Shown in pieces: positions 1-56,966 of a stretch of 64,000 bases of DNA. The position numbers and the translations under genes were made by a program. Numbering within the stretch: the stretch's first letter is position 1; every line of letters begins with the position of its first letter. The notes beneath the pieces were generated by a model. That model saw only the letters and a list, made by a program, of their open reading frames with translations, was not told where the DNA came from and searched no databases. The DNA is from Rhabdophis nuchalis (Eukaryota; Chordata; Lepidosauria; Squamata; Natricidae): positions 189,472,462 to 189,536,461 of the forward strand of contig CM077644.1 of assembly GCA_039707465.1 (NCBI GenBank), written 5' to 3'.

Positions 1-1326
1 GTCTATACCACAGCCTTATGTTCCCTTGAGAATCCAATCATCTGAGGGTAAAGAGCCACAACCCAACATAAGAGAGAGTGAGATAACACCATGCCCAAGC
101 ATGCCAAGAGACTCCTGAACTAAGCTAGAACTTTTTTTTTTGACATAGCCTACAAAGACATCTCAGCAGCAAGAACAGTTGTGCTTAGATGGGTTCTTGG
201 TTTTGGGTTCTTGGATGGTTTCTTGGTACTGAGGGGAAAGTAACTTAGCCTGAGAAAATGGAACTACATTGATCCCTGGAGGCCCTCTGTAACTACAAGC
301 ATAACATAATACTTCCTATAGAAATCCCTGGCATTTGATCTGGGCTCATTTCTTCACTTCCAAAACACATTTTTATCCCTTTCAATGCTGGTTCTTTGAT
401 TGCTTGCTTTTGTGTTTTGAACCAGGACTGGATTTACAGTTTGAGACTGATGGATTTACTGCAGTAATAAAAGAAATAATAAGCTGCCATTTGTTGAGAC
501 CAGGGCAGCAGTACATGTTCATTAGGACTTTGCCTCTTTAAAGAAAGAGGTTCTGGCATATCCTTTCCCCAAAGCAAAAGAATAAAATGCAACTACATTT
601 GTAATTGTTTAACATTTATCAGTTAAAGATTTCAATATGTCCCACATTAAATCATTAATTAAATAAAGATCTCCAGTATTTGGGGCTCGTAAAGGACATG
701 CTGACATGGCTATCCTATTAAATTAAAAGATAGCATAAAATGTGGGTATTCATAAAATACTACAGTAGGTAGCATTGAAGCTATATATCCATTTGTTAGA
801 AATAAATCTATTCCACTGAATTCACATTTTTTTGCTCCACAAAATGTCTAGTTTATAAAAGACAAAACACATGCCACAAATCATCTATAAATCAAGTATT
901 CTAAACTTAAATCTGAAATGTAGTTTCCTCAAGATCATCTAAAAAAAAAAAAAAGTTTTCTCCAAACACACAACATAATCACAAACACACAGCTGTCACA
1001 TAATAAATCCCACACATAAAAATAGTTCAGTCAGGATTATTTCACCCCCCTCAAAGCCCCCACATTGTCTTTCTTCATTTAGATTACCTTCTAAACCCTT
1101 CATTTTATCTATCTTTCTCTCCCTCCCCAATCTCTTTTACTCAAACAAACACATAGAAACATTCCATTTTTTTATTTTTCTTGGAATTTAATGATCCAAA
1201 CATAGTAATGGCTGAGCCTCAGCCTCCCTAACTTTTTTTTTTTTACAAAATTTAAATAAGCAGAATATAATTATCAGATTGAGGATGCTAATGAGGCACC
1301 AAGCAGTTTTTTCAGATGGTACTTAT
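1..1326. other. Gene-free AT-rich stretch
   Basis: I see no gene or recognisable repeat here. It holds an A-run near 941-954, a pyrimidine-rich patch near 1108-1140 and a T-run near 1231-1243. The longest open frame is 68 codons (335-541) and resembles no family I know. Confidence 0.6.
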
Positions 1327-1418
1327 ACAATACAATACAATAGCAGAGTTGGAAGGGACCTTGGAGGTCATCTAGTCCAACTCCCTGCCTAGGCAGGAAA
1401 CCCTATACCATTTCAGAC
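1327..1418 (-). mobile_element. CR1-type LINE, extreme 3' end
   Basis: Short remnant of a chicken-repeat-1 type LINE, read on the minus strand. The plus strand shows a run of the pentamer AATAC (the 3'-terminal simple repeat) followed by the CR1-typical block 'agcagagttggaaggg' and then 'ctagtccaactccctgcc'. The larger copy at 1780 has the same terminus. Only the 3' untranslated end is present, as expected of a heavily 5'-truncated copy. Confidence 0.85.
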
Positions 1419-1779
1419 TTGTCACAGGAGCTGTATATGAGGAATTCCAAGATATACACCACAGGGACAAATACCAGTGAAGACGTTTGCATAGGGTGCA
1501 GTAGCTGAATTCAGAAAGGCACATATCCATAAAACAAAACTGTAAGTTTACCATATGTGTTAGTGCCAAAATTATTGAGTGCTATATACCAGAAGACAAA
1601 ACACAAACTCTGACTTCATTAGCAACTCTGACATTGCTTCTATCAGTTCTTCATGGTAAAATGTAGTTTGTGTATGTATTGTAAATATAGATGGTGTGAG
1701 GGTATGATAGACATATGTAACTCCCTAATTGGTCACAAATGGAAGTAGGCCCCAAAGTCAAGCTGGTGTCCACAGATAA
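1419..1779. other. No recognised feature
   Basis: Unique-looking sequence between two CR1 3' ends. I see no coding frame or repeat in it. Confidence 0.5.
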
Positions 1780-21180: not shown

Positions 21181-21475
21181 CCTCCACCTATAAGAAAAAC
21201 AAGCAAATTGACACCCTGCCAAGAGTAGCCAGAGGAGATCTTAGAAGAGAGTTCTTAATGATACTATTGCCATATTGCATGTTTGTAAATAATTCATTAA
21301 GTCAACCATCCCTTTGTTTTAAGCAAACTTGAACATATGCCTTTTGAAATGAAATCCAGGCACCTTTTCATAGCAAAACATGAACATAAAATGTTACTTG
21401 AAGATAATGTAGTTTAGATATTTATTTTTGGTCTCTCATAATTAACAAAGGTTATTATCTGACACCTAACAAATC

Positions 21476-21545
21476 CTTCCTTCCTTCCTTCCTTCCTTCC
21501 TTCCTTCCTTCCTTCCTTCCTTCCTTCCTTCCTTCCTTCCTTCCT
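21476..21545. repeat. (CCTT)n microsatellite, about 70 bp
   Basis: About seventeen uninterrupted CCTT units. A homopurine/homopyrimidine tract of this length can form triplex DNA and is likely to vary in length. Confidence 0.98.
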
Positions 21546-27281: not shown

Positions 27282-27414
27282 ATATTTGTTCCACAACACC
27301 CTGTTAGGGCCCCAATTAAGGGAGGAGACATACTGTTTCCTTTTCTGCCTTTTCTGCCTTTTGGCAGAAACATATATATATGTTAGGTTTTTGAGCTGAT
27401 CAATAAATATAGTT

Positions 27415-27420
<6 letters not shown>

Positions 27421-27457
<37 letters not shown>
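27421..27457. repeat. (TA)n microsatellite
   Basis: About eighteen TA units inside the tail of a minus-strand unit. Confidence 0.95.
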
Positions 27458-27459
<2 letters not shown>

Positions 27460-27610
27460 GTGTCACAACACCCTGTTAAGCCCCAATTAAGGGAGGAAGC
27501 ATACTGCTTTCCTTTTCTGCCTTTCGGCTCATCACCAGAGACCATCTAGACAGAAAGCTATATATATATGTTAGTTTTTATGAGCTGATCAATAAATTAA
27601 ATTAGAGAGA

Positions 27611-27657
27611 GACCAGGATAGATCTATTTCGAGCTTATTAGCTCTCATCAGCTGGCC
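27611..27657 (-). ncRNA. Hammerhead ribozyme copy 1 (intact core)
   Basis: Read on the minus strand: stem I 5' arm GGCCAG; core CTGATGA; stem II GAGCT-AATA-AGCTC (5 bp, tetraloop); GAAA; short stem III ATA-GATC-TAT; C17; stem I 3' arm CTGGTC (5 Watson-Crick pairs plus one G-U). Every invariant core base is present (C3 U4 G5 A6 G8 A9, G12 A13 A14, A15.1-U16.1, C17). Predicted cleavage is 3' of the C at 27617. Stem I is the open stem, so type I. The 3-4 bp stem III is the minimal form typical of retroelement hammerheads, which often act as dimers. Confidence 0.9.
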
Positions 27658-27660
27658 ATA

Positions 27661-27737
27661 CCCCTTACTGGGATTCGAACCGGGGCTATGTTGCATGCTA
27701 AGCAAGGAACCTAGCACTTTAGCCAAGCCGGTTCCCC
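27661..27737 (-). promoter_or_regulatory. tRNA-like segment with Pol III B box (copy 1)
   Basis: Minus strand 'ggggaaccggcttggctaaa' through 'ccccggttcgaatcc'. The B box GGTTCGAATCC (27671-27681) is an exact match to the consensus. The A-box-like 'ttggctaaagtgctagg' is about 45 bp upstream of it. The segment lies directly 5' of hammerhead copy 1, so a Pol III transcript would include the ribozyme. The arms do not fold into a full cloverleaf, so this is tRNA-derived, not a tRNA gene. Confidence 0.75.
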
Positions 27738-27940
27738 TTATTGCATCAGCAGACAGGGTATATTAGTATAGGTAATTGTTTCTCAACAACCTGTTATTAG
27801 GCCCCAATTAAGGGAGGAGACATACTGTTTCCTTTCCTGCCTTTCGACTCATCACCAGAGATCATCTAGACAGCAAGCCAAGAAATATATATATATATGT
27901 TAAATTTCTTTAAGGGATGATTAATAATAATTAATTAAGA

Positions 27941-27987
27941 GACCAGGATGGATCCATTTCGGGCTCCTTAGCCCTCGTCAGCTGGCC
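27941..27987 (-). ncRNA. Hammerhead ribozyme copy 2 (intact, covaried stems)
   Basis: Minus strand: GGCCAG; CTGACGA (position 7 is C, which is tolerated); stem II GGGCT-AAGG-AGCCC; GAAA; stem III ATG-GATC-CAT; C17; CTGGTC. Compared with copy 1, stem II pair 2 changes A-U to G-C and stem III pair 3 changes A-U to G-C, both compensatory. The predicted cleavage sites of copies 2 and 1 are 330 nt apart in head-to-tail orientation. Confidence 0.9.
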
Positions 27988-27990
27988 ATA

Positions 27991-28068
27991 CTTCCCTACA
28001 GGGATTTGAACTGGTGCTCTCCAGCATTCGAAGCAGGCTTCTCTATGCCTTGAGCTAACCAGTTTCCC
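27991..28068 (-). promoter_or_regulatory. tRNA-like segment (copy 2)
   Basis: Minus strand 'gggaaactggttagctcaag' to 'agttcaaatccc'. The B box AGTTCAAATCC (28002-28012) differs from the consensus at two positions. The A-box-like 'ttagctcaaggcatagag' resembles a standard SINE A box. It is placed just 5' of hammerhead copy 2. Confidence 0.65.
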
Positions 28069-28101
28069 TGATTACATCATCCTTTCTACAGGACTTTATT
28101 G

Positions 28102-28218
28102 ATGAAGTGGATATATTGTTACAGCTTCCTGTTAGGTCTATTTAAGGGAGGAGACAAACTTGTCATCCTTCTCTGTCCTTCGACTCAACCTAGAGACCAT
28201 CCAGACAGAGACCTATTA
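28102..28218. repeat. Left arm of a 117-bp near-perfect inverted repeat
   Basis: Pairs with 28281-28397 across a 62-nt spacer with a single mismatch seen (ggtcta versus ggccta). Both arms are the leader of the ribozyme unit, so two units meet head to head here. Confidence 0.9.
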
Positions 28219-28280
28219 AAGATTATTATTAATCATCCCTTAAAGAAATTTAACACATATCTAAAAAGACAGCAGTAATT

Positions 28281-28397
28281 TAATAGGTCTCTGTCTGGAT
28301 GGTCTCTAGGTTGAGTCGAAGGACAGAGAAGGATGACAAGTTTGTCTCCTCCCTTAAATAGGCCTAACAGGAAGCTGTAACAATATATCCACTTCAT
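28281..28397. repeat. Right arm of the 117-bp inverted repeat
   Basis: Reverse complement of 28102-28218. It marks the switch from minus-strand to plus-strand units and would fold into a long hairpin in single-stranded form. Confidence 0.9.
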
Positions 28398-28500
28398 ATA
28401 TATATATGCTTTTATATGTATAAATATGCTTGTGTCACAAATCCCAGTAAGGGTATGGCTAGCTGAACATGGCCCCGGTTTGAATCCCAGTAAGGGGTAT

Positions 28501-28547
28501 GGCCAGCTGATGAAAGCTAATAAGCTCGAAATAGATCTATCCTGGTC
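28501..28547 (+). ncRNA. Hammerhead ribozyme copy 3 (one stem II mismatch)
   Basis: GGCCAG; CTGATGA; AAGCT-AATA-AGCTC; GAAA; ATA-GATC-TAT; C17; CTGGTC. All core bases are present, but the first stem II pair is A opposed to C, which should weaken the fold. The upstream tRNA-like part is disturbed, with a partial duplication of 'agtaagggtatggctagctg' at 28446-28465. C17 is at 28541. Confidence 0.85.
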
Positions 28548-28768
28548 TCTCTCTAATTTAATTTATTCATCAGCTCATAAAACTAACACACATATCTAAA
28601 ATATTATACAACGTAATTCTTGGCTTGCTGTCTGGATGGTCTCTAGTGATGAGCCAATAGGCAGTAAGGGAAACAGTATGTCTCCTCCCTTAATTGGGGC
28701 CTAATAATAACAGGTTGTTGTGAAACAATTACCTATACTAATATACTCTGTCTAAACTGATGCAATAA

Positions 28769-28846
28769 GGGGAACTGGCTTGGCTCAAGTGCTAGGCTTC
28801 TTGCCTTGCATGCAACATAGCCCCGGTTCGAATCCCAGTAAGGGGT
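28769..28846 (+). promoter_or_regulatory. tRNA-like segment with Pol III B box (copy 4)
   Basis: 'ggggaactggcttggctcaa' followed by 'gtgctaggc' is the A-box region. GGTTCGAATCC at 28825-28835 is a perfect B box, about 45 bp downstream of it. It ends at 'agtaagggg', 3 nt before stem I of hammerhead copy 4. Confidence 0.75.
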
Positions 28847-28848
28847 AT

Positions 28849-28895
28849 GGCCAGCTGATGAGAGCTAATAAGCTCGAAATAGATCTATCCTGGTC
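28849..28895 (+). ncRNA. Hammerhead ribozyme copy 4 (intact core)
   Basis: Same sequence as copy 1, on the plus strand, with all core bases and all stem pairs intact. C17 is at 28889. With copy 3 it defines a head-to-tail monomer of 348 nt (28542-28889). Immediately upstream is a perfect B box, so this is the best-preserved transcribable unit in the cluster. Confidence 0.9.
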
Positions 28896-29062
28896 TCTCT
28901 CTAATTTAATTTATTGATCAGCTCATAAAACTAACACACATATCTAAAATATTATACAACGTAATACTTGGCTTGCTGTCTGGATGATCTCTAGTGATGA
29001 GCCGATAGCAGTAAGGGTATCCTTCCTTAATTGGGGCCTAATAATAACAGGTTGTTGTGAAA

Positions 29063-29100
29063 CAATTACACACACACACACACACACATATATGTGTATA
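29063..29100. repeat. (CA)n/(TA)n microsatellite
   Basis: CA repeat passing into TA/TG repeat where a plus unit meets a minus unit. Confidence 0.9.
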
Positions 29101-29153
29101 TATATATGCGTGTGTTAGTTTTAAGAGCTGATCAATAAATTAAATTAGAGAGA

Positions 29154-29200
29154 GACCAGGATAGATCTATTTCGAGCTTATTAGCTCTCATAAGCTGGCC
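29154..29200 (-). ncRNA. Hammerhead ribozyme copy 5 (inactivated)
   Basis: Identical to copy 1 except that the core reads CTTATGA: G5 is replaced by U, and G5 is essential, so no self-cleavage is expected. Followed by a partial duplication of 'cagctggccatacccc' at 29209-29224. Confidence 0.85.
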
Positions 29201-29225
29201 ATACCCCTTCAGCTGGCCATACCCC

Positions 29226-29235
<10 letters not shown>

Positions 29236-29262
<27 letters not shown>
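29236..29262. repeat. (TG)n microsatellite
   Basis: TG repeat at the tail of a minus-strand unit. Confidence 0.95.
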
Positions 29263-29264
<2 letters not shown>

Positions 29265-29298
29265 TTTTATGAGCTGATCAATAAATTAAATTAGAAGA

Positions 29299-29325
29299 GA
29301 CCAGGATAGATCTATTTCAAGCTTA
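29299..29325 (-). ncRNA. Hammerhead ribozyme copy 6 (3' half only)
   Basis: Keeps the 3' strand of stem II, GAAA, stem III, C17 and CTGGTC, then joins leader sequence of an opposite-strand unit ('attggggcctaataataac'). The CTGATGA half is missing. Confidence 0.8.
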
Positions 29326-29383
29326 ATTGGGGCCTAATAATAACAGGTTGTTGTGAAACAATTACATATATATATATATATAG

Positions 29384-29446
29384 GAGAGATAATTATCACA
29401 GCTCCTGTTCAGAGGTCCCTTTAAGGGGAGGAGACTCAACGTCATC
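29384..29446. repeat. Left arm of a 63-bp inverted repeat
   Basis: Reverse complement of 29634-29696, no mismatch seen over 63 bp. The arms are unit leaders; hammerhead copy 7 lies in the spacer. Confidence 0.85.
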
Positions 29447-29560
29447 CCTCTCTGCCCTTCAACTCATCCTAGAGATCATCCAGACAGAGAACCTAATTAG
29501 ATTACTGCTGTGTAACATTTTTTAGACATGTGTTAGATTTTTAAGGGCTGAAAATAAAGA

Positions 29561-29607
29561 GACCAGGATGGATCCATTTCAGGCTTATTAGCCTTCTTCA
29601 GCTGGCC
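29561..29607 (-). ncRNA. Hammerhead ribozyme copy 7 (intact, covaried)
   Basis: Minus strand: GGCCAG; CTGAAGA (position 7 is A, tolerated); stem II AGGCT-AATA-AGCCT; GAAA; stem III ATG-GATC-CAT; C17; CTGGTC. Stem II pair 1 is A-U here and G-C in copies 1, 2 and 4. Pair 2 is G-C here and A-U in copies 1 and 4. All invariant bases kept. Confidence 0.9.
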
Positions 29608-29633
29608 ATACTCCTTCTACTGGGATTTGAACT

Positions 29634-29696
29634 GATGACGTTGAGTCTCCTCCCCTTAAAGGGACCTCTGAACAGGAGCTGTGATAATTATCTCTC
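29634..29696. repeat. Right arm of the 63-bp inverted repeat
   Basis: Pairs with 29384-29446; together they bracket a minus-strand tail/ribozyme segment. Confidence 0.85.
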
Positions 29697-29731
29697 TCAT
29701 TTAAGAGTCCTGTAAATTGGCTGATATATCA

Positions 29732-29810
29732 GGGATACTGGATAGCTCAAGGCATAGAGAAGCCTGTCTCATATGCTGGAAAGCACCAGTTCAAATCCCA
29801 GTAGAAGGAG
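29732..29810 (+). promoter_or_regulatory. tRNA-like segment (copy 8)
   Basis: 'gggatactggatagctcaag' and 'gcatagagaag' resemble the copy 2 A-box region. The B-box-like AGTTCAAATCC is at 29789-29799. It precedes truncated hammerhead copy 8. Confidence 0.6.
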
Positions 29811-29813
29811 TAT

Positions 29814-29842
29814 GGCCAGCTGAAGAAGGCTAATAAGCCTGA
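29814..29842 (+). ncRNA. Hammerhead ribozyme copy 8 (5' half only)
   Basis: GGCCAG, CTGAAGA and a complete stem II AGGCT-AATA-AGCCT, then GA, where it breaks into an inverted leader ('gaccatcaccagag'). Stem III and the cleavage site are lost. Confidence 0.8.
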
Positions 29843-29845
29843 GAC

Positions 29846-30014
29846 CATCACCAGAGACCATCGAGAGAAAGCCAAGAATTCCGTTGTGTAATTTTTTATA
29901 TGTGTGTTACGTTTTTGAGCTGATCAATAAATAAAAAATGTAAAACGTAACACACATATAAAAAAATTAAAGAACCGAATTATTGGCTTTCTGTCTAGAT
30001 GGTCTCTGGTGATG
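29846..30014. repeat. Fold-back palindrome of unit leader and tail
   Basis: 29846-29914 is nearly the reverse complement of 29942-30014 (a few mismatches and about 4 nt of indels) around a 27-nt centre. A third head-to-head junction in the cluster. Confidence 0.8.
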
Positions 30015-30127
30015 AGCCGAAAGGCAGAAAAGGAAAAGCAGTGTGCTTCCTCCCTTAATTGGGGCCTTAACAGGGTGTTGTGGAAACAATTATATATAAC
30101 TATCGTCCTGTCTCAGCTGACAAGAAC

Positions 30128-30200
30128 AGAACCTAGCTGGCTTAATGGCAAGGCTTTCGCCTGGCATGTAATACAGCCCTGGTTCGAATCCCAGTAAGGG
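30128..30200 (+). promoter_or_regulatory. tRNA-like segment with Pol III B box (copy 9)
   Basis: 'tagctggcttaatggcaagg' is an A-box-like start. GGTTCGAATCC at 30181-30191 is a perfect B box, and CTGG/CCAG around it gives a T-arm-like stem. Its anticodon-arm region differs from copy 4, so it is a distinct subfamily. Confidence 0.7.
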
Positions 30201-30203
30201 TAT

Positions 30204-30250
30204 GGCTATCTGATGAGAGCTAATAAGCTCGAAATAGATCTATCCTAGTC
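30204..30250 (+). ncRNA. Hammerhead ribozyme copy 9 (stem I variant)
   Basis: GGCTAT; CTGATGA; GAGCT-AATA-AGCTC; GAAA; ATA-GATC-TAT; C17; CTAGTC. Stem I pair 3 changed from C-G to U-A on both strands (compensatory), but pair 1 is now U opposed to C. Core complete. It ends the most complete unit (about 29980-30300), whose tail is (CA)n. Confidence 0.85.
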
Positions 30251-30285
30251 TCCCTGACTTATTTATTGATCAGCTCAAAAATGTA

Positions 30286-30307
30286 ACACACACACACACA
30301 CACACAT
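30286..30307. repeat. (CA)n microsatellite
   Basis: CA tail at the 3' end of the last ribozyme unit. It also borders the 3' end of the minus-strand LINE that follows. Confidence 0.95.
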
Positions 30308-36143: not shown

Positions 36144-39100
36144 GTAGAAGATCTCTGTTGAGTGGCGGGGAGCGGTTGGGCGGCCTGAAATGGCCCCGGC
36201 ACCGGCGTTTGTCCCGGCACGGGCCGGAGTGGAACCAAGCCGACAGCTGGAGAGGAGCCTGGAGTGGTGTGCCAGAGACAGAGATATGGACTCATGGAGG
36301 GCTTTTGGACCATTCTCCCTCCTTATGAACAACTAGGCACAAATCCACTAACTTTTACCATCTATGCGTACTATGATTCATCTTTATGCCCCCCTCCCTT
36401 CCCCCTGGAAAAGATCTCTCCATCCCATGTGTTTTTAAATATCTTTCCTACCCGTCCGTCCTGTATATATTTTCGATCTGCACTGTCGCCACTTTAGTCG
36501 GGCTTGCTGTTGTATAATTTTATGCATTTTACCATCTTAAGCATGTTTACCATCTTTAGCGTTCCTCCTTTTATAGCCAGTGTGGCCTGGGAATGCTAGC
36601 GTATTCAAGGTTAGACCTTCTTTGCCTGCGGGAGTCTCCCCTCTCGCAGGCCTGGCCCCCGGGTCTAACACGGGCCCACCTCGAGGATGGATTGATTGAT
36701 CCAGAGAGGTGGGCGCAGCGCAAACTTAGGGGGTTTTTAAACAAATTTTTAATTCGGCTTTTAAGGGGTTCTGGGGCGGGGGGAGGGCTCATTCAGTCAG
36801 GGGGGGGGTCAAGATATAGGGCCGGCTGGCGGAAGTAGGATAAAGGAGGGGTCCATTAGGGAGGGGGGATTGGGGGTTGTCTCTGTTGAGGGCCGTCCCA
36901 TTCGATTGGTCTTGGGGAGGGGCAGGGGCGGTGGGAGGCAGGATGTCCATCGTGGGTTGGAGGCTCGTGGTCGCTGGTTACGAGCGGTCGCTTGCCCCAA
37001 CCCCCTGTACTCCACTCGTGGGCTAGGCGGTCAGGGATTACAGAGCCGGGGGCCCAGGCTGATGTTCTGCAACGCCAGGTCCGTGGTGAACAAAGCCCCC
37101 CTCATAAATGACCTTGTGTCAGAGGGGGACCCGGACCTGGTGGGAATTACGGAAACCTGGTTGGGCCCCGAGGGGGGTTTACCCCTCGTGGAAATGTGCC
37201 CACCAGGCTACCGTGCATTTCATCGGCCTAGGGCCCTAGGCAGGGGTGGGGGGTGGCGGTTATTGTTAAGGAAAGTCTGGAGCCGAAGGAGACCACTATG
37301 CCTCAGACGACCGGCTGTGAGTCCCTCTTCGTGAAATGGGGCCTAGGGAGGCAGTTGGGCTTGCTGCTTGTATACCTGGCTCCCCGCTATGTAACAGCAG
37401 CCCTGCCCGAGCTACTCGAGGTGATCGCCGCGATGGCGGTGGAGACCCCCAGACTTATAGTCATGGGGGACTTTAACCTGCCATCGGCGGGCGAAACATC
37501 CGAGGTAGCTCGGGAGTTCATGGCTTCCATGACGGCCATGGACCTGACCCAAGTAGTTCAGGGCCCCACTCACGAGGGAGGACACACGCTGGATCTGATT
37601 TTTGTCTCTGGACACTGGATTAGTGATCTCGGAACAGGGGATTTAGTCATCTTACCCTTGTCATGGACAGATCACTCTCTCCTTCGGATAGACTTTCCAA
37701 CCGTCACACCTCACCGCGGGGAGGCGGAACCGGAAACACCAAGTTGGTTCCGCCCCAGGCGCCTGATGGACCCGGAAAGGTTCCAGAGGGAGCTTGGGCC
37801 AGTACCTGTATCCCTGCCCCGCGGCTCGACTGAGGACCTAGTGGCCGCGTGGTATAGTGCGGCCACGGGGGCCTTGGACCGAGTCGCGCCCTTGGGGCCT
37901 CTCATGCGGCGTCGAGTCACCCAGGCTCCTTGGTTTACCGAGGAGCTTCGGGAGATGAAACGCCGCAAGAGACGCCTAGAGAGTAGGTGGAGATCTTCTC
38001 GATCCGAAGCTGACCGAACACTAGTGAGAGACCATATTAGGACTTACTTAGTGGCGCTAAGAGTGGCCAAACGTGAGTATTGTGCCACCCTTATCGCGTC
38101 CGCGGAAAACCGCCCTGCCGCCCTGTTTGGGGTGACCCGCTCCCTCCTTCATTTGAGGCCGCGGGAAGCCCCTCTGCAGGGTCGAGCAGAGGAATTTGGA
38201 GTATTTCTGCAGGACAAAATCACTCAGATTCGGAACGAGTTGCCCTCCACTAGTGGCCCAGTCGGGGCGTCCGGTGCTGGTCTTGAGATAACACCTTGGG
38301 AGGAGTTCGACTTTGTTACTACCGAGGATATGGACAGGTTGCGGAGGAACCTTAGAGCCACCACATGTTTATTGGACCCGTGCCCCTCCTGGCTTGTACT
38401 GGCATCCTGGGAGGTGACACGAGGCTGGCTCCAGGGCATTGTGAATTCATCTCTGAGTGAGGGGTACTTGCCCACCGTTTTGAAAGAGGCGGTGGTGAGG
38501 CCCCTCCTCAAGAAGCCATCCCTGGATCCGGCTTTATTAGAGAACTATCGTCCCGTCTCCAACCTTCACTTTTTAGTGAAGGTTGTTGAGAGTGTGGTGG
38601 CTCAACAGTTTCCCCGACATCTGGAGGAAGTTGATTATCTAGACCCGCGCCAGTCCGGCTTCCGGCCCGGTCACAGCACCGAGACGGCATTGGTCGCGTT
38701 GGTTGATGATCTCTGGAGGGCACGGGATAGAGGTTGTTCCTCTATCCTTGTCCTATTAGACCTCTCAGCGGCTTTTGATACCATCGACCATGGTATCTTA
38801 TTGCACCGATTGGGGGGGTTGGGGTTGGGAGGCACCGTTCTACGGTGGTTCTCATCCTACCTCTCTGGTCGGTCGCAATGGGTGTTGGCAGGAGGGCAGA
38901 GGTCGTCCCCGAGGCCCCTCATATGTGGGGTCCCTCAGGGGTCGGTCCTCTCTCCCCTTCTGTTCAACACCTATATGAAGCCGCTGGGCGAGATCATCCG
39001 TGGTTTTGGGGTGGAATACCATCTGTACGCTGATGACACTCAGTTGTACATATCCACCCCAAACCACCCCAACGATGCCGTCGAAGTGCTGTCCCGGTGT

Positions 39101-40088
39101 CTAGAGGCCGTACGGATCTGGATGGGTAGTAACAAACTCAAACTCAACCCGTCCAAGACCGAGTGGCTGTGGTTTCCGGCACCCCGGTTCAGCCAGTTAA
39201 GTCCAACACTGGCCATTGTGGGCGAACAACTGGCCCCCGTGGAGAGGGCGCGCAACTTGGGTGTCCTCCTGGATTCCCGGCTGTCCATGGAGGACCATGT
39301 GGCGGCCGTGGCCAGGGGGGCGTTCTATCAGGTACGCCTGATACGCCAGTTGCGCCCCTTACTGGACCGGGGAGCCCTTCGCACAGTCACTCAAGCGCTT
39401 GTGACATCCCGGCTGGATTACTGCAACGCTCTCTACATGGGGCTCCCCTTGAGGTGCACTCGAAAGCTACAGTTAGTGCAGAATGCGGCCGCGCGGGTGA
39501 TTATGGGTGCCTCAAGGCAAACCCACGTAACACCTCTCCTGCGCGAGCTGCACTGGCTGCCTGTGGCCTTTCGAGTGCGCTTCAAGGTGTTGACAACCAT
39601 CTTTAAATCGCTCCATGGCTCGGGGCCTAGCTATATACGAGACCGCCTCCTGCCCCATACATCCCTTCGTCCGATCCGCTCCCACAGAGAGGGCCTTCTC
39701 CGGGTGCCGTCGACGGGGCAATGCCGGTTGGCGACACCCAGGGGAAGGGCCTTCTCTGTGGCGGGCCCGGCCCTCTGGAACGACCTACCCCCCGACCTTC
39801 GCACTATCTCGGACCTCCGTCTCTTCCGCCAACGTCTTAAGACGTATTTATTTCAACAAGCCGGCCTAGGATAGCCCCCTGTTCCTGACTTTTTTTTTAA
39901 AAAAATAAATAAATTATAATTTGGGAAGGTTTTTTAACATGGGTTTTAGCACGGGTTAATCTAATTTAATATATTTTAAATTGATATTTATTGTATTTTT
40001 GTGGTTTTAATAATGCCTGTGCGCCGCCCTGGGTCCTAACAAGGAGAAGGGCGGGGTATAAATTTAATAAAATAAAATAAAAAAATAA
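36144..40088 (+). mobile_element. Nearly full-length L2 LINE
   Basis: About 3.95 kb: a GC-rich 5' region (36144-36869) with no recognisable ORF1, ORF2 with endonuclease and RT, a short 3' UTR, and the L2-like end 'gccgccctgggtcctaac' with an AATAAA-type tail. Possible 7-bp duplication ATTTCTG at 36137-36143 and 40089-40095. It sits inside a Rex1-like LINE. GC content and CpG density are far above the flanks, consistent with a recent insertion. It is the reference copy for the L2 fragments elsewhere in the window. Confidence 0.9.
36870..39874 (+). pseudogene. L2 ORF2: endonuclease-reverse transcriptase (one frameshift)
   Basis: Encodes the replicase that nicks target DNA and reverse-transcribes the element RNA there. 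Endonuclease (APE type): 'LMFCNARSVVNKAPLINDLV' (Asn near 37071), 'VGITETWLGP' (Glu near 37152), 'LIVMGDFNLP' (37460-37485), 'SWTDHSLLRIDF' (37660-37690). RT: 'PLLKKPSLDPALLENYRPVS', 'LLDLSAAFDTIDHG' (about 38755-38795), 'CGVPQGSVLSPLLF' (38926-38967), YADD at 39026-39037. C-terminus 'LQLVQNAAARVIMGASRQ' and 'ELHWLPVAFRVRFKVLTTIF', the L2 signature. The only lesion I see is a frameshift in a G-run at about 37244-37253, between 'RALGRGGG' and 'VAVIVKES'. The first ATG of the recognisable domain is 37062; the true start is uncertain because the frame is open further upstream. All catalytic residues are present. Confidence 0.9.
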
Positions 40089-42083: not shown

Positions 42084-44158
42084 TTTTTTGATTGAAAAAA
42101 GTTTTATTGGTTTTAACATTTTTAAGAAGGAAAGGAGTAGATAAGATATTAGATAATATTTTAGAGCTTCCACGTCGGGTTTGGTGACCGCCTCCGAATC
42201 TTCATACATGTTCCATTAGGAAATAATAAAAGGAAGGGGTACATACATTTTAAATCATAAATTTTCATATTATTTTATACATTCAACTAGTTTGTTCTAA
42301 CATCCGTACAGGAATTACCGTCATAAAAAAAGAGATAAAAAGTTATGTTTGCGATCTGAGCCTCTTTGCTATAGTCTCTTCCTCCTCCATCCCACCAGCA
42401 GGCGGACCCGTGGCCCCTCAGGTTCCCATCTCACCATCATCCAGGATTGAGGAACGTTTTTTAAGAAAATTCTCCGCCTCTTCTACTGTTTTAATTCTAA
42501 CTCTTCCTCCCTCCCAGAATACCAGCATCCCTTCAGGCATCAGCCACTTGAACCACACCCCCTTTTTAAATAATTTTTTAGTTACGAAGGAATAATTCCT
42601 TCTTATATCTCGTATTTTCTTTGGGATCTGCTTCAATATGGCCACCTCGTTTTGCTGATACATCAGAGGGCCCCTCTTTGTGCTCTCAGTATCTCGTCCC
42701 TCGTTGACCTTCTTATAAATTTAATATGTATCTCTCTGGGTACCTCATTTATTCTGGCAAATGCTGAATTAATTCTATAAATCAAATCAATGTCCCCCCA
42801 AATAAATTCCTTATCTTTCTTAATGTAATTCGCTAACATAGTAGCCATCAACTCTTTTAAATTCTCATTAGGTGATTCTGGAACATTCTGAAATCTTAAA
42901 AAGAAAGTCATACGTTCAAAATCAATTTTAGACATTTGACCAGTAATATCTGTAATTTCTTTCTTAAAGTCTTTTATCCCCTCCTTCATCTCAACCGCCC
43001 CCCCTTCCAGCCCCTCAATTTTTTGTTTATTATTTGTTATTTCTCTTTGCGCCTCCAATAGTTCCAATCTTGTACTTAAATTGTCTTTCCGAATTTGTTG
43101 CATTTCATTCATTATTTTTTGAAACATCTCCTCTACGTTTAATGGCTTAGGATCCTCTACTTCTGTTTCCCTCTGTAACAAGGCTGAAATCTTAGGTTGT
43201 GAGGATGGACTAGGCTTTGCAGATGTTGGAGCAGAGCTTGATTTTCCAGATGGAGGTTTCTTCGATGCCATAATTAAAGTTTTTAATGTTGGTGTAAAGA
43301 GAAGAAAGGGGGGGAAATGGTGCTGTTGGGTGGGCAGTCCGTGAAGTCTGAGACAAAAGCAGCTGTAGTTCAACTTAAATTCCAACGTCCAGAGAGAAAG
43401 TTACAAAAAAGGAAAAAACTTTCCAAACAAAGCAGAAGGTTTCCCAAGGGAGGAGAGCACCGAAAGACACCAAAGCAGGTCCTTTTTTATATATTTTAAA
43501 GTTAGTCTGATTTTGTTAAAAGGAAGGAATGCTTATTTCCAAAGAAAAAAAAGTTCCATCCTGGGAACAAAGAGAACGCCATCTTTCCGCCTTGCCGGCA
43601 GGGTGAACAAACCAAAAGTGAAAACAATCAATTTAAAATGTAGCAAGGCTCAGGATACATTGTCTGACAGCAATCCCTTATTTGGCAATAAATTTCCATT
43701 TTCAATAAATCCAACGGATGTCACTTTCACTCACTCCGAATCACGGGACTGTTTCTTTAATGCCGCTTTGGTTCCAGGGGGTTGTTTCCAACTCCCCCCT
43801 ATCTTCTCTTCCCTTAAAATTGAATGCAAAAAGTCCAAATAAGGCACATACCATTTTTCTATTCTGGAGCCTCGGCGCAGCCATTCAGCCCCGGCGTTTC
43901 AGCTCCTTATAAAAATCCTCCATGTTCCAGCTCCTTCTGCGAAAGGGAAACTCCCCCCACGAACGTTCCTCAGCCCCTAGGCCGAAGCGGGAGAAGCCCC
44001 CCGATCGCCGTCGGGATGGGGGCCCTCACCGCAAGCCGCCCGTATGGAGGGGGGGATTATGCCCGTCCCCCCCTGCCCCCGAAGGCGCAGCTAAGGCAAC
44101 ACAGCGGCGGACGTGGAATCCACGTCCGTCCACGTCCGAAGCCGGAAACGATCTCCCA
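42084..44158 (-). mobile_element. Half-L1 element (5' UTR, ORF1, 3' UTR, no ORF2)
   Basis: Minus-strand L1-type insertion of 2.07 kb with a perfect 17-bp target-site duplication 'ggtcatgtgaccctttt' (42067-42083 and 44159-44175). In sense orientation the duplication starts AAAA, as expected for L1 endonuclease. In order: a GC-rich 5' UTR of about 0.9 kb starting at 44158, ORF1, about 0.33 kb of 3' UTR, and an A-tail (T-run at 42080-42089). ORF2 is wholly absent, so it resembles mammalian HAL1 elements. It must have used ORF2 protein in trans. Confidence 0.85.
42418..43271 (-). pseudogene. L1 ORF1 (RNA-binding chaperone), one frameshift
   Basis: ORF1p trimerises and coats L1 RNA. I chose the ATG at 43271-43269 ('MASKKPPSGKSSSAPTSAK'); the frame upstream of it reads 5' UTR. 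Regions in order: a Ser/Pro/Lys-rich N-terminus; a coiled coil ('EEMFQKIMNEMQQIRKDNLS' through 'GIKDFKKEITDITGQMSKI', about residues 60-130); an RRM-like domain ('MTFFLRFQNVPESPNENLK', 'IDLIYRINSAFARINEVPRE'); and the C-terminal domain ('VTKKLFKKGVWFKWLMPEG', 'KTVEEAENFLKKR'). One extra G in the 'aggggccc' run near 42670 shifts the frame between 'RAQRG' and 'MYQQNEV'. Total about 280 residues, slightly short of typical vertebrate ORF1p. Near-intactness points to recent insertion. Confidence 0.85.
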
Positions 44159-51960: not shown

Positions 51961-52467
51961 TGCATATGTGCCTGTTGATGGTTAACTTGTCAAAGTGTCT
52001 GGCTTTCATGAATACTCTGACATTTTTGGACTTGGCTTGGTCTAGTTTGGTCACAGTTTCCTAGTTGAAACTATGGTTAAATCTGACTTTAGATTGACCG
52101 TCTCCGGGGGGGAGATATCCCCAACCTGGTCTTTCAATCTTCCAATGATGCACCCATTCCCACTATACCTAAGTTCATTCAATTTGCTGATAATCATTCT
52201 CTTTCTCTCTTTCCTTGCACTTTTCCCACCCTCCAGAGATCTAGGCCTTTTCATAACGTGCATAAAGCAGGATTATATAAATCTGGTCATTTGTACCTTG
52301 GGAGAACTCTGTGTTCATTTATTCAATTATCTGTTTGGGGTTTTTTTCTCCCTGTCCACTATATTCTTAGGTGTTTGTTCCAATACCAAAGTTCAAAGGT
52401 ATCAGTTCTCTTTCTGTTTTGAATCTATCACACAAGCAACTATAAAAGTAATGTGGAGGAATTAGAC
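51961..52467. other. No recognised feature
   Basis: The overlapping frames of 130 (plus) and 70 (minus) codons share no domain with any family I know. Confidence 0.35.
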
Positions 52468-52592
52468 CAGGATTGTCAAATTCACAGCCCCTCGGCCGGA
52501 TGAATCACATGCTGGCCTTACCCACCCCCATTTTAACAAAAGTCATGATATATCATGTGACCACAATGTGACACCGCGAGTTTGACACCCTG
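52468..52592. mobile_element. hAT-like MITE (CAGGGGTGT family)
   Basis: Left CAGGATTGTCAAATTCACAG and right GCGAGTTTGACACCCTG are inverted ends. Length 125 bp; flanking octamers are only partly alike. The interior includes 'tcatgatatatcatgtgacc', a short palindrome. Confidence 0.65.
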
Positions 52593-56873: not shown

Positions 56874-56874
56874 A

Positions 56875-56966
<92 letters not shown>
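56874..56966. repeat. (GAAA)n microsatellite, about 93 bp
   Basis: About 23 nearly perfect GAAA units; the Lys/Glu-rich frame over it is an artefact. The longest pure microsatellite in the window. Confidence 0.98.

Follow-up and report, generated by a model that had tools for sequence, protein, structure and literature searches.

The 64-kb window analysed here (the whole stretch of Rhabdophis nuchalis DNA presented above, in whose positions all window coordinates are given) carries at 27282-30300 a cluster of short repeats in which a transfer RNA (tRNA)-like head is joined to a type I hammerhead ribozyme motif. An initial annotation of the sequence had proposed such a composite, and both parts are present at the coordinates it gave. 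Seven near-complete type I hammerheads lie between 27609 and 30252, three on the forward (+) and four on the reverse (-) strand, with fragments besides. A strict hammerhead descriptor accepts four of the seven (28855+, 27651-, 27981- and 29601-), and had no match in 500 dinucleotide-shuffled windows.

The copy at 28845-28897(+) is complete and belongs to subfamily A of the three described below, with a 6-bp helix I, CTGATGA, a 5-bp helix II, GAA, a 3-bp helix III with a GATC loop, and C17. Its predicted cut after 28889 is the one originally foreseen, and it scores 35.2 bits with the Hammerhead_HH9 model of Rfam. The other descriptor-accepted copies are all on the reverse strand: 27609-27661 (complete, subfamily A, 35.2 bits, predicted cut after 27617 reading down the coordinates), 27939-27991 (complete, subfamily B, compensated pairs in helices II and III, 25.6 bits, predicted cut after 27947) and 29559-29611 (complete, B-like, three compensated pairs, predicted cut after 29567). 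The remaining three have defects: in 28497-28549(+) the basal pair of helix II is broken (28.6 bits, predicted cut after 28541), 30200-30252(+) combines a compensated helix I pair with one mismatch (predicted cut after 30244), and 29152-29204(-) has lost core residue G5 and is expected to be inactive (31.9 bits).

The predicted cut at 28541 precedes the next by 348 nt, and positions 28466-28660 and 28814-29008 are 96% alike, which makes the 348-nt unit of the initial annotation a real tandem period (28542-28889(+) from cut to cut, the expected monomer). The annotation had also given each unit a simple CA/TA tail. Its coordinates hold, but the 3-kb cluster is a mosaic of pieces in alternating orientation instead of a plain row of units, and the CA/TA stretches lie at insertion junctions. 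These pieces are a reverse-strand tandem array aligning along ~2.3 units (27441-28208, 3′ end at 27441 beside (TA)n), a B-type piece at the centre of a palindrome (28226-28367(+)), a forward array aligning along ~1.8 units (28466-29069, 3′ end beside (AC)n), partial reverse-strand copies of unit positions 72-171 (29110-29209, 3′ end beside (CA/TA)n) and 101-172 (29255-29325, 3′ end beside (CA)n), a partial B-like copy (29421-29632(-)), and about one unit, 80% identical, at 29941-30292(+), whose 3′ end is at unit position 172 beside (AC)n. The palindrome centre is near 28250, and the two outer ends of the cluster are both 3′, beside (TA)n and (AC)n. The only open frame in the cluster has 109 codons and lies on the antisense strand, and the unit holds no reverse transcriptase or GIY-YIG endonuclease frame.

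Three exact GGTTCGAATCC matches, claimed as RNA polymerase III type B boxes, were all located (28825-28835(+), 30181-30191(+), 27671-27681(-)), and each of the five window heads tested has an A and a B box, with starts 43-46 nt apart. The heads lie at 28768-28844(+) (A box 28781-28791, B box 28825-28835), 27662-27737(-) (27725-27715 and 27681-27671), 27992-28068(-) in subfamily B (28057-28047 and 28011-28002), 29732-29808(+), which is B-like (29743-29753 and 29789-29798), and 30130-30199(+) (30138-30148 and 30181-30191). The Rfam tRNA model had no match even at an E-value of 10, and the heads were therefore assessed by their boxes, by ARAGORN and by alignment to tRNAs. In the alignment, four of the five heads beat 300 of 300 shuffles and the fifth (29732-29808) beat 298. 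ARAGORN at default settings called no tRNA in the window; at a threshold of 80 it called two of six heads against one of 500 shuffles, that at 30130-30199 being read as tRNA-Ala at a relaxed threshold, and among five heads from copies elsewhere in the genome one (C-type, locus L024) passed at default, again as tRNA-Ala. Between subfamilies, few parts are less conserved than the head (59% A-B, 69% A-C), in which the A and B boxes nevertheless persist, and the hammerhead is the most conserved (84% A-B, 90% A-C).

At Rfam gathering scores there was no match in the window, nor in the 15 of 34 further genomic loci that were scanned. Below that level, HH9 (RF02275), which we take to represent the conserved intronic hammerhead of amniotes, matches five window copies, with scores from 35.2 down to 25.6 bits (E-values 2.4e-6 to 0.0028). 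The best of these scores is below the gathering score of 52, which places the copies outside RF02275; HH9 is the top-scoring Rfam model for A- and C-type copies, and for the B-type copies of locus L023 no Rfam model matched at E 1. Matches to microRNA precursors in the cluster (mir-789, 58 bits; MIR7996, 52 bits) come from head-to-head palindromes at 28174-28325 and 29848-30010, score below gathering and were rejected. Exact-pattern scans of viral and prokaryote collections returned no match, a result uninformative on squamates.

Across the seven window copies (six of them distinct), 97.6% of 84 pair cells hold standard pairs and both sides have changed at four pairs, across helices I, II and III; with the partner slid by 1-3 bases as a control, pairing was 24-44% with no double change. 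A model built from these hammerheads gave 96 matches in the window and the 34 loci, the latter being the best matches to window positions 28760-28920, a choice that favours intact copies. The 51 distinct rows pair in 95.6% of 685 cells, with 46 double-change cells against at most 8 when slid, subfamilies sharing double changes such that independent events are fewer than cells. Leaving nine gapped matches out of the core, pair and palindrome counts, the catalytic core is intact in 74 of 87 copies, and the core plus all 14 pairs in 61. Among 42 distinct rows, 36 double changes retain pairing and one does not, and single changes break a pair in 19 cases and give another standard pair in eight. 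This pattern suggests that the hammerhead structure is under selection. One weak match of the same model elsewhere in the window (52463-52521(-), E 0.0067) is probably due to chance.

In the predicted fold of a single unit, helices I and II form with pair probabilities of 0.90-1.0. Helix III and its loop together make a perfect 10-nt palindrome, ATAGATCTAT or the doubly changed ATGGATCCAT, in 83 of the 87 copies. Since helix III is weak and the palindrome conserved, the hammerhead may well work as a dimer: a kept palindrome is what a dimeric hammerhead requires, and its retention points to dimeric cleavage.

The element is a young, dispersed and often tandem family. A 161-base query against the 1.9-Gb genome matched at least 41 places, eight at 100% identity (one being the query itself) and 33 at 99%, a lower bound given that 40 of 762 candidates were scored. 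Three subfamilies were distinguished, with units of 348 nt (A), 343/342 nt (B) and 333 nt (C, locus L013). Locus L023 carries a subfamily B trimer at 434-1411(+), whose three hammerheads, starting at 646, 989 and 1331 in the order of the array, are identical. Control regions totalling 60 kb held one 42-nt C-type fragment and no hammerhead, a sample too small for an estimate of copy number. Taken with the tRNA-like heads, the covarying hammerheads and the tandem units, these young copies support the original proposal of a SINE-like (short interspersed element) or retrozyme-like family; three subfamilies, a weak helix III pointing to a dimeric ribozyme, and the insertion signature described below were absent from that account.

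The window cluster and the 34 loci yielded 113 segments, excluding those shorter than 40 nt or overlapping, of which 55 are young (at least 90% identical over at least 60 nt). With unit positions counted from the tRNA-like start, 24 of the 55 young 3′ ends fall at 165-182 and 22 at 303-329, hence 46 at two internal sites, with one at the hammerhead cut and the remaining eight at other positions. The same two sites recur, with greater scatter, in the other 58 segments. Young 5′ ends are scattered, yet 14 of 55 also fall at 303-329. A microsatellite lies no more than 30 nt beyond the segment at 39 of 55 3′ ends and at 7 of 54 5′ ends; for random places in the window the figure is 97 of 2000. Young segments longer than one unit are common (22 of 55, the longest 1032 nt), and neighbours no more than 60 nt apart stand head-to-head in 35 cases, tail-to-tail in 12 and on the same strand in six. 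There are 35 multi-piece clusters: in 23 both outer ends are 3′, in two both are 5′, and ten are mixed. A further 13 clusters consist of a single piece.

This anatomy has the features of Penelope-like insertion, namely copying that starts at two internal sites, AT-rich targets, and copies arranged in tandem and head to head. The purified Penelope-like protein of Anolis cuts and extends both strands, prefers AT-rich DNA and starts copying at two adjacent internal sites, mostly in an AC-rich stem-loop (PMC11167929), and in rotifer Penelope elements the head-to-head arrangement is given as the commonest inverted form (PMC3846280). Such an element exists in the same genome: locus L038 carries at 162-1490(+) the remnant of a Penelope-like gene, interrupted by an in-frame stop, a second piece being inverted at 15-318. 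Its reverse transcriptase piece scores 26 bits with RVT_1 (cut-off 29.6) and its GIY-YIG piece 17.4 bits (cut-off 22.6); most of the relatives listed for its protein carry PF26215, and some RVT_1 and GIY-YIG too, with Ahaetulla, Crotalus and Vipera represented among these relatives. In L038 and L016, direct repeats of a Penelope end (an exact repeat of 43 bp and one of 27 bp with a single mismatch) flank the retrozyme cluster at the same place in that end, and L063 holds another copy of this end without an insert. Two snake gene models (P2Y purinoceptor 1 isoform, P0121; acyl-CoA thioesterase 12, P0239) also match the Penelope-like protein, and Penelope-like fragments seem to have been included in predicted host proteins.

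Elsewhere in the window, an 880-codon frame of a long interspersed element (LINE) at 37232-39874(+), with endonuclease and reverse transcriptase relatives in squamates, is uninterrupted, which suggests a fairly young LINE copy. Taken over 37232-39871, it has its best E-value to Varanus and its highest identities to snakes, namely 84% in Pituophis (covering 23% of the query), 74% in Naja (54%) and 73% in Erythrolamprus (53%), in keeping with the reptile host named initially. A 245-codon open frame at 42663-43400(-) resembles the first frame of LINE-1, judging by its translation, and there are two perfect tetranucleotide microsatellites, (TCCT)18 at 21474-21545 and (AAAG)23 at 56874-56966.

From the anatomy, the covariation, the high identity of dispersed copies and the insertion pattern, all directly observed, we favour, at a probability of roughly 0.62, a non-long-terminal-repeat (non-LTR) retrozyme that carries a tRNA-like promoter, is cleaved by hammerheads acting in pairs and is inserted by a Penelope-like element. 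RNA polymerase III would start at the tRNA-like head and read tandem copies into multimeric RNA, which the hammerhead would cut once per unit into 348-nt monomers. With helix III too weak alone, two hammerheads of a multimer would pair through the 10-nt palindrome and cut, and a host RNA ligase may then close the monomer. Because the cut falls between head and body, a linear product would lose its promoter, which a circle would keep with the body. The Penelope-like reverse transcriptase and GIY-YIG endonuclease would cut AT-rich or microsatellite DNA, Penelope ends included, and copy RNA, whether circular or multimeric, starting at two internal sites and from both target strands, leading to tandem and head-to-head insertions with both outer ends 3′, as the genomic anatomy suggests.

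Penelope-like sequence was found in 13 of 34 retrozyme loci and in none of 20 control regions (Fisher p 0.0008). Several points nevertheless weigh against this reading. The controls were few and shorter (3 kb against loci of ~4 kb), one of the 13 neighbours (L025) is a 25-nt match 1.9 kb away, and no match to the Penelope-like piece occurs in the 64-kb window. Helix III has a probability of about 0 in the single-unit fold, and the circular fold of the unit, though more stable than its shuffles (z -3.0; one shuffle in 200 was equally low), is no more paired (60% vs. 58%). Depletion of the polymerase III terminator TTTT is not significant: it is missing from four units (348, 348, 343 and 333 nt) and occurs four times in a fifth, with 27-60% of shuffles of the four likewise lacking it. 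On the sense strand, the units are not similar to the Penelope template of Anolis, the reverse complement of a B unit scoring 36 and the highest sense-strand shuffle 31, and the Penelope link hence rests on insertion anatomy and neighbourhood. Polymerase III transcription, self-cleavage and RNA circles are moreover what we infer from DNA alone, and the two-site 3′ ends do not discriminate circles from uncut multimers: 3′ ends avoiding the cut and common multimers fit the copying of either alike, and uncut RNA sufficed in the Anolis system in vitro (PMC11167929).

An identical insertion signature would be left by a trimmed, non-autonomous derivative of the Penelope-like element of the same genome that had gained a tRNA-like promoter, rather than by a retrozyme borrowing Penelope proteins. 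That element has its own hammerhead-like stretch after the frame (L038, ~1536-1575), and the two kinds of sequence often stand side by side. We nonetheless consider this origin unlikely: Penelope matches adjoin the retrozyme segments and do not lie within them, sense-strand similarity to the Anolis template was not found, and Penelope hammerheads are described as lacking the helix III present here (PMC7761336, PMC6155905), the comparison with the terminal repeat of the snake element being made through two pieces of it, an end piece of 150 bases and a coding piece of 1330. That a LINE copies an ordinary tRNA-derived SINE, with tandem and inverted copies arising by template jumping and twin priming, appears more doubtful still. 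The head with its A and B boxes is that of a SINE, LINE frames are present in the window, and LINE-1 twin priming likewise yields inverted pieces; however, a SINE should have one fixed 3′ end where two internal sites are seen, both outer ends are 3′ in 23 of 35 clusters while LINE-1 and R2 reportedly extend the bottom strand only (PMC11167929), and the Penelope neighbourhood speaks against it. A degenerate satellite-like repeat dispersed through DNA recombination, its hammerhead a functionless relic, would explain the tandem and inverted layout and the core residues lost in some copies (74 of 87 retain the core), but is very improbable given the paired changes preserving all three helices, the kept palindrome and the dispersed 99-100% identical copies beside microsatellites.

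The snake element combines features of several known systems, and it has the canonical type I hammerhead, the few-hundred-bp tandem unit and the absence of a protein-coding frame expected of metazoan non-LTR retrozymes. Tandem type I hammerhead retrozymes are known from salamanders and invertebrates, and those of axolotl are described as having a weak helix III, a palindromic tetraloop in one family and good cleavage as dimers (PMC7229834). Like axolotl Rtz331 and Rtz353, the snake element forms ~330-350 bp tandem repeats with a canonical type I hammerhead, a weak helix III and a tetraloop that is palindromic, and its genome likewise holds more than one family; unlike them, it resides in an amniote and has a tRNA-like head, no mention of a tRNA or polymerase III being found for axolotl in the text searched (PMC7229834), and here insertion junctions and Penelope neighbourhood were examined. 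Schistosoma Sm-alpha also unites a tRNA-derived part and a type I hammerhead in one short repeat (PMC2770079, PMC4918200), a likeness of build; the head is tRNA-Gln-derived there and mostly tRNA-Ala-like here, in a vertebrate host. The Penelope-like Poseidon of Anolis shares the two internal start sites, extension of both strands, AT-rich targets and tandem copies (PMC11167929), but the snake element differs in having no reverse transcriptase or endonuclease frame, a helix III in its hammerhead and a tRNA-like head. We file it as a retrozyme, Sm-alpha-like in the build of its head and Penelope-like in its insertion. The union of tRNA and hammerhead (Schistosoma) and tandem retrozymes were known; the Penelope-like insertion signature of a retrozyme is new. 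Among the literature matches listed, from a collection with few subscription papers, no tandem or tRNA-headed hammerhead repeat was found for an amniote.

Amniote intronic hammerheads are thought to derive from retroelements (PMC6155905, PMC3088659), and the snake copies differ from the conserved HH9 hammerheads in scoring below gathering and in being multicopy, mobile and tandem. It is tempting to speculate, at somewhat less than even odds, that this is a SINE-like element whose partner is Penelope-like instead of a LINE, tRNA-headed and self-cutting, with circular RNA copied two-sidedly into microsatellites by target-primed reverse transcription, and a present-day amniote example of the mobile elements presumed ancestral to the intronic hammerheads conserved in reptiles, birds and mammals.

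Penelope-like elements have been proposed as the partners of animal retrozymes on the basis of co-occurrence and shared features (PMC7229834), and the insertion anatomy described here supports that partnership in a genome where both partners can be tested. As Rfam at its own thresholds misses the family in the window and in 15 loci, similar elements may be overlooked. The hammerheads of human and other mammals are isolated motifs from which circular RNA is not expected, according to the same work (PMC7229834); with a young family of tandem repeats in a snake, circles produced by a ribozyme would become testable in an amniote.

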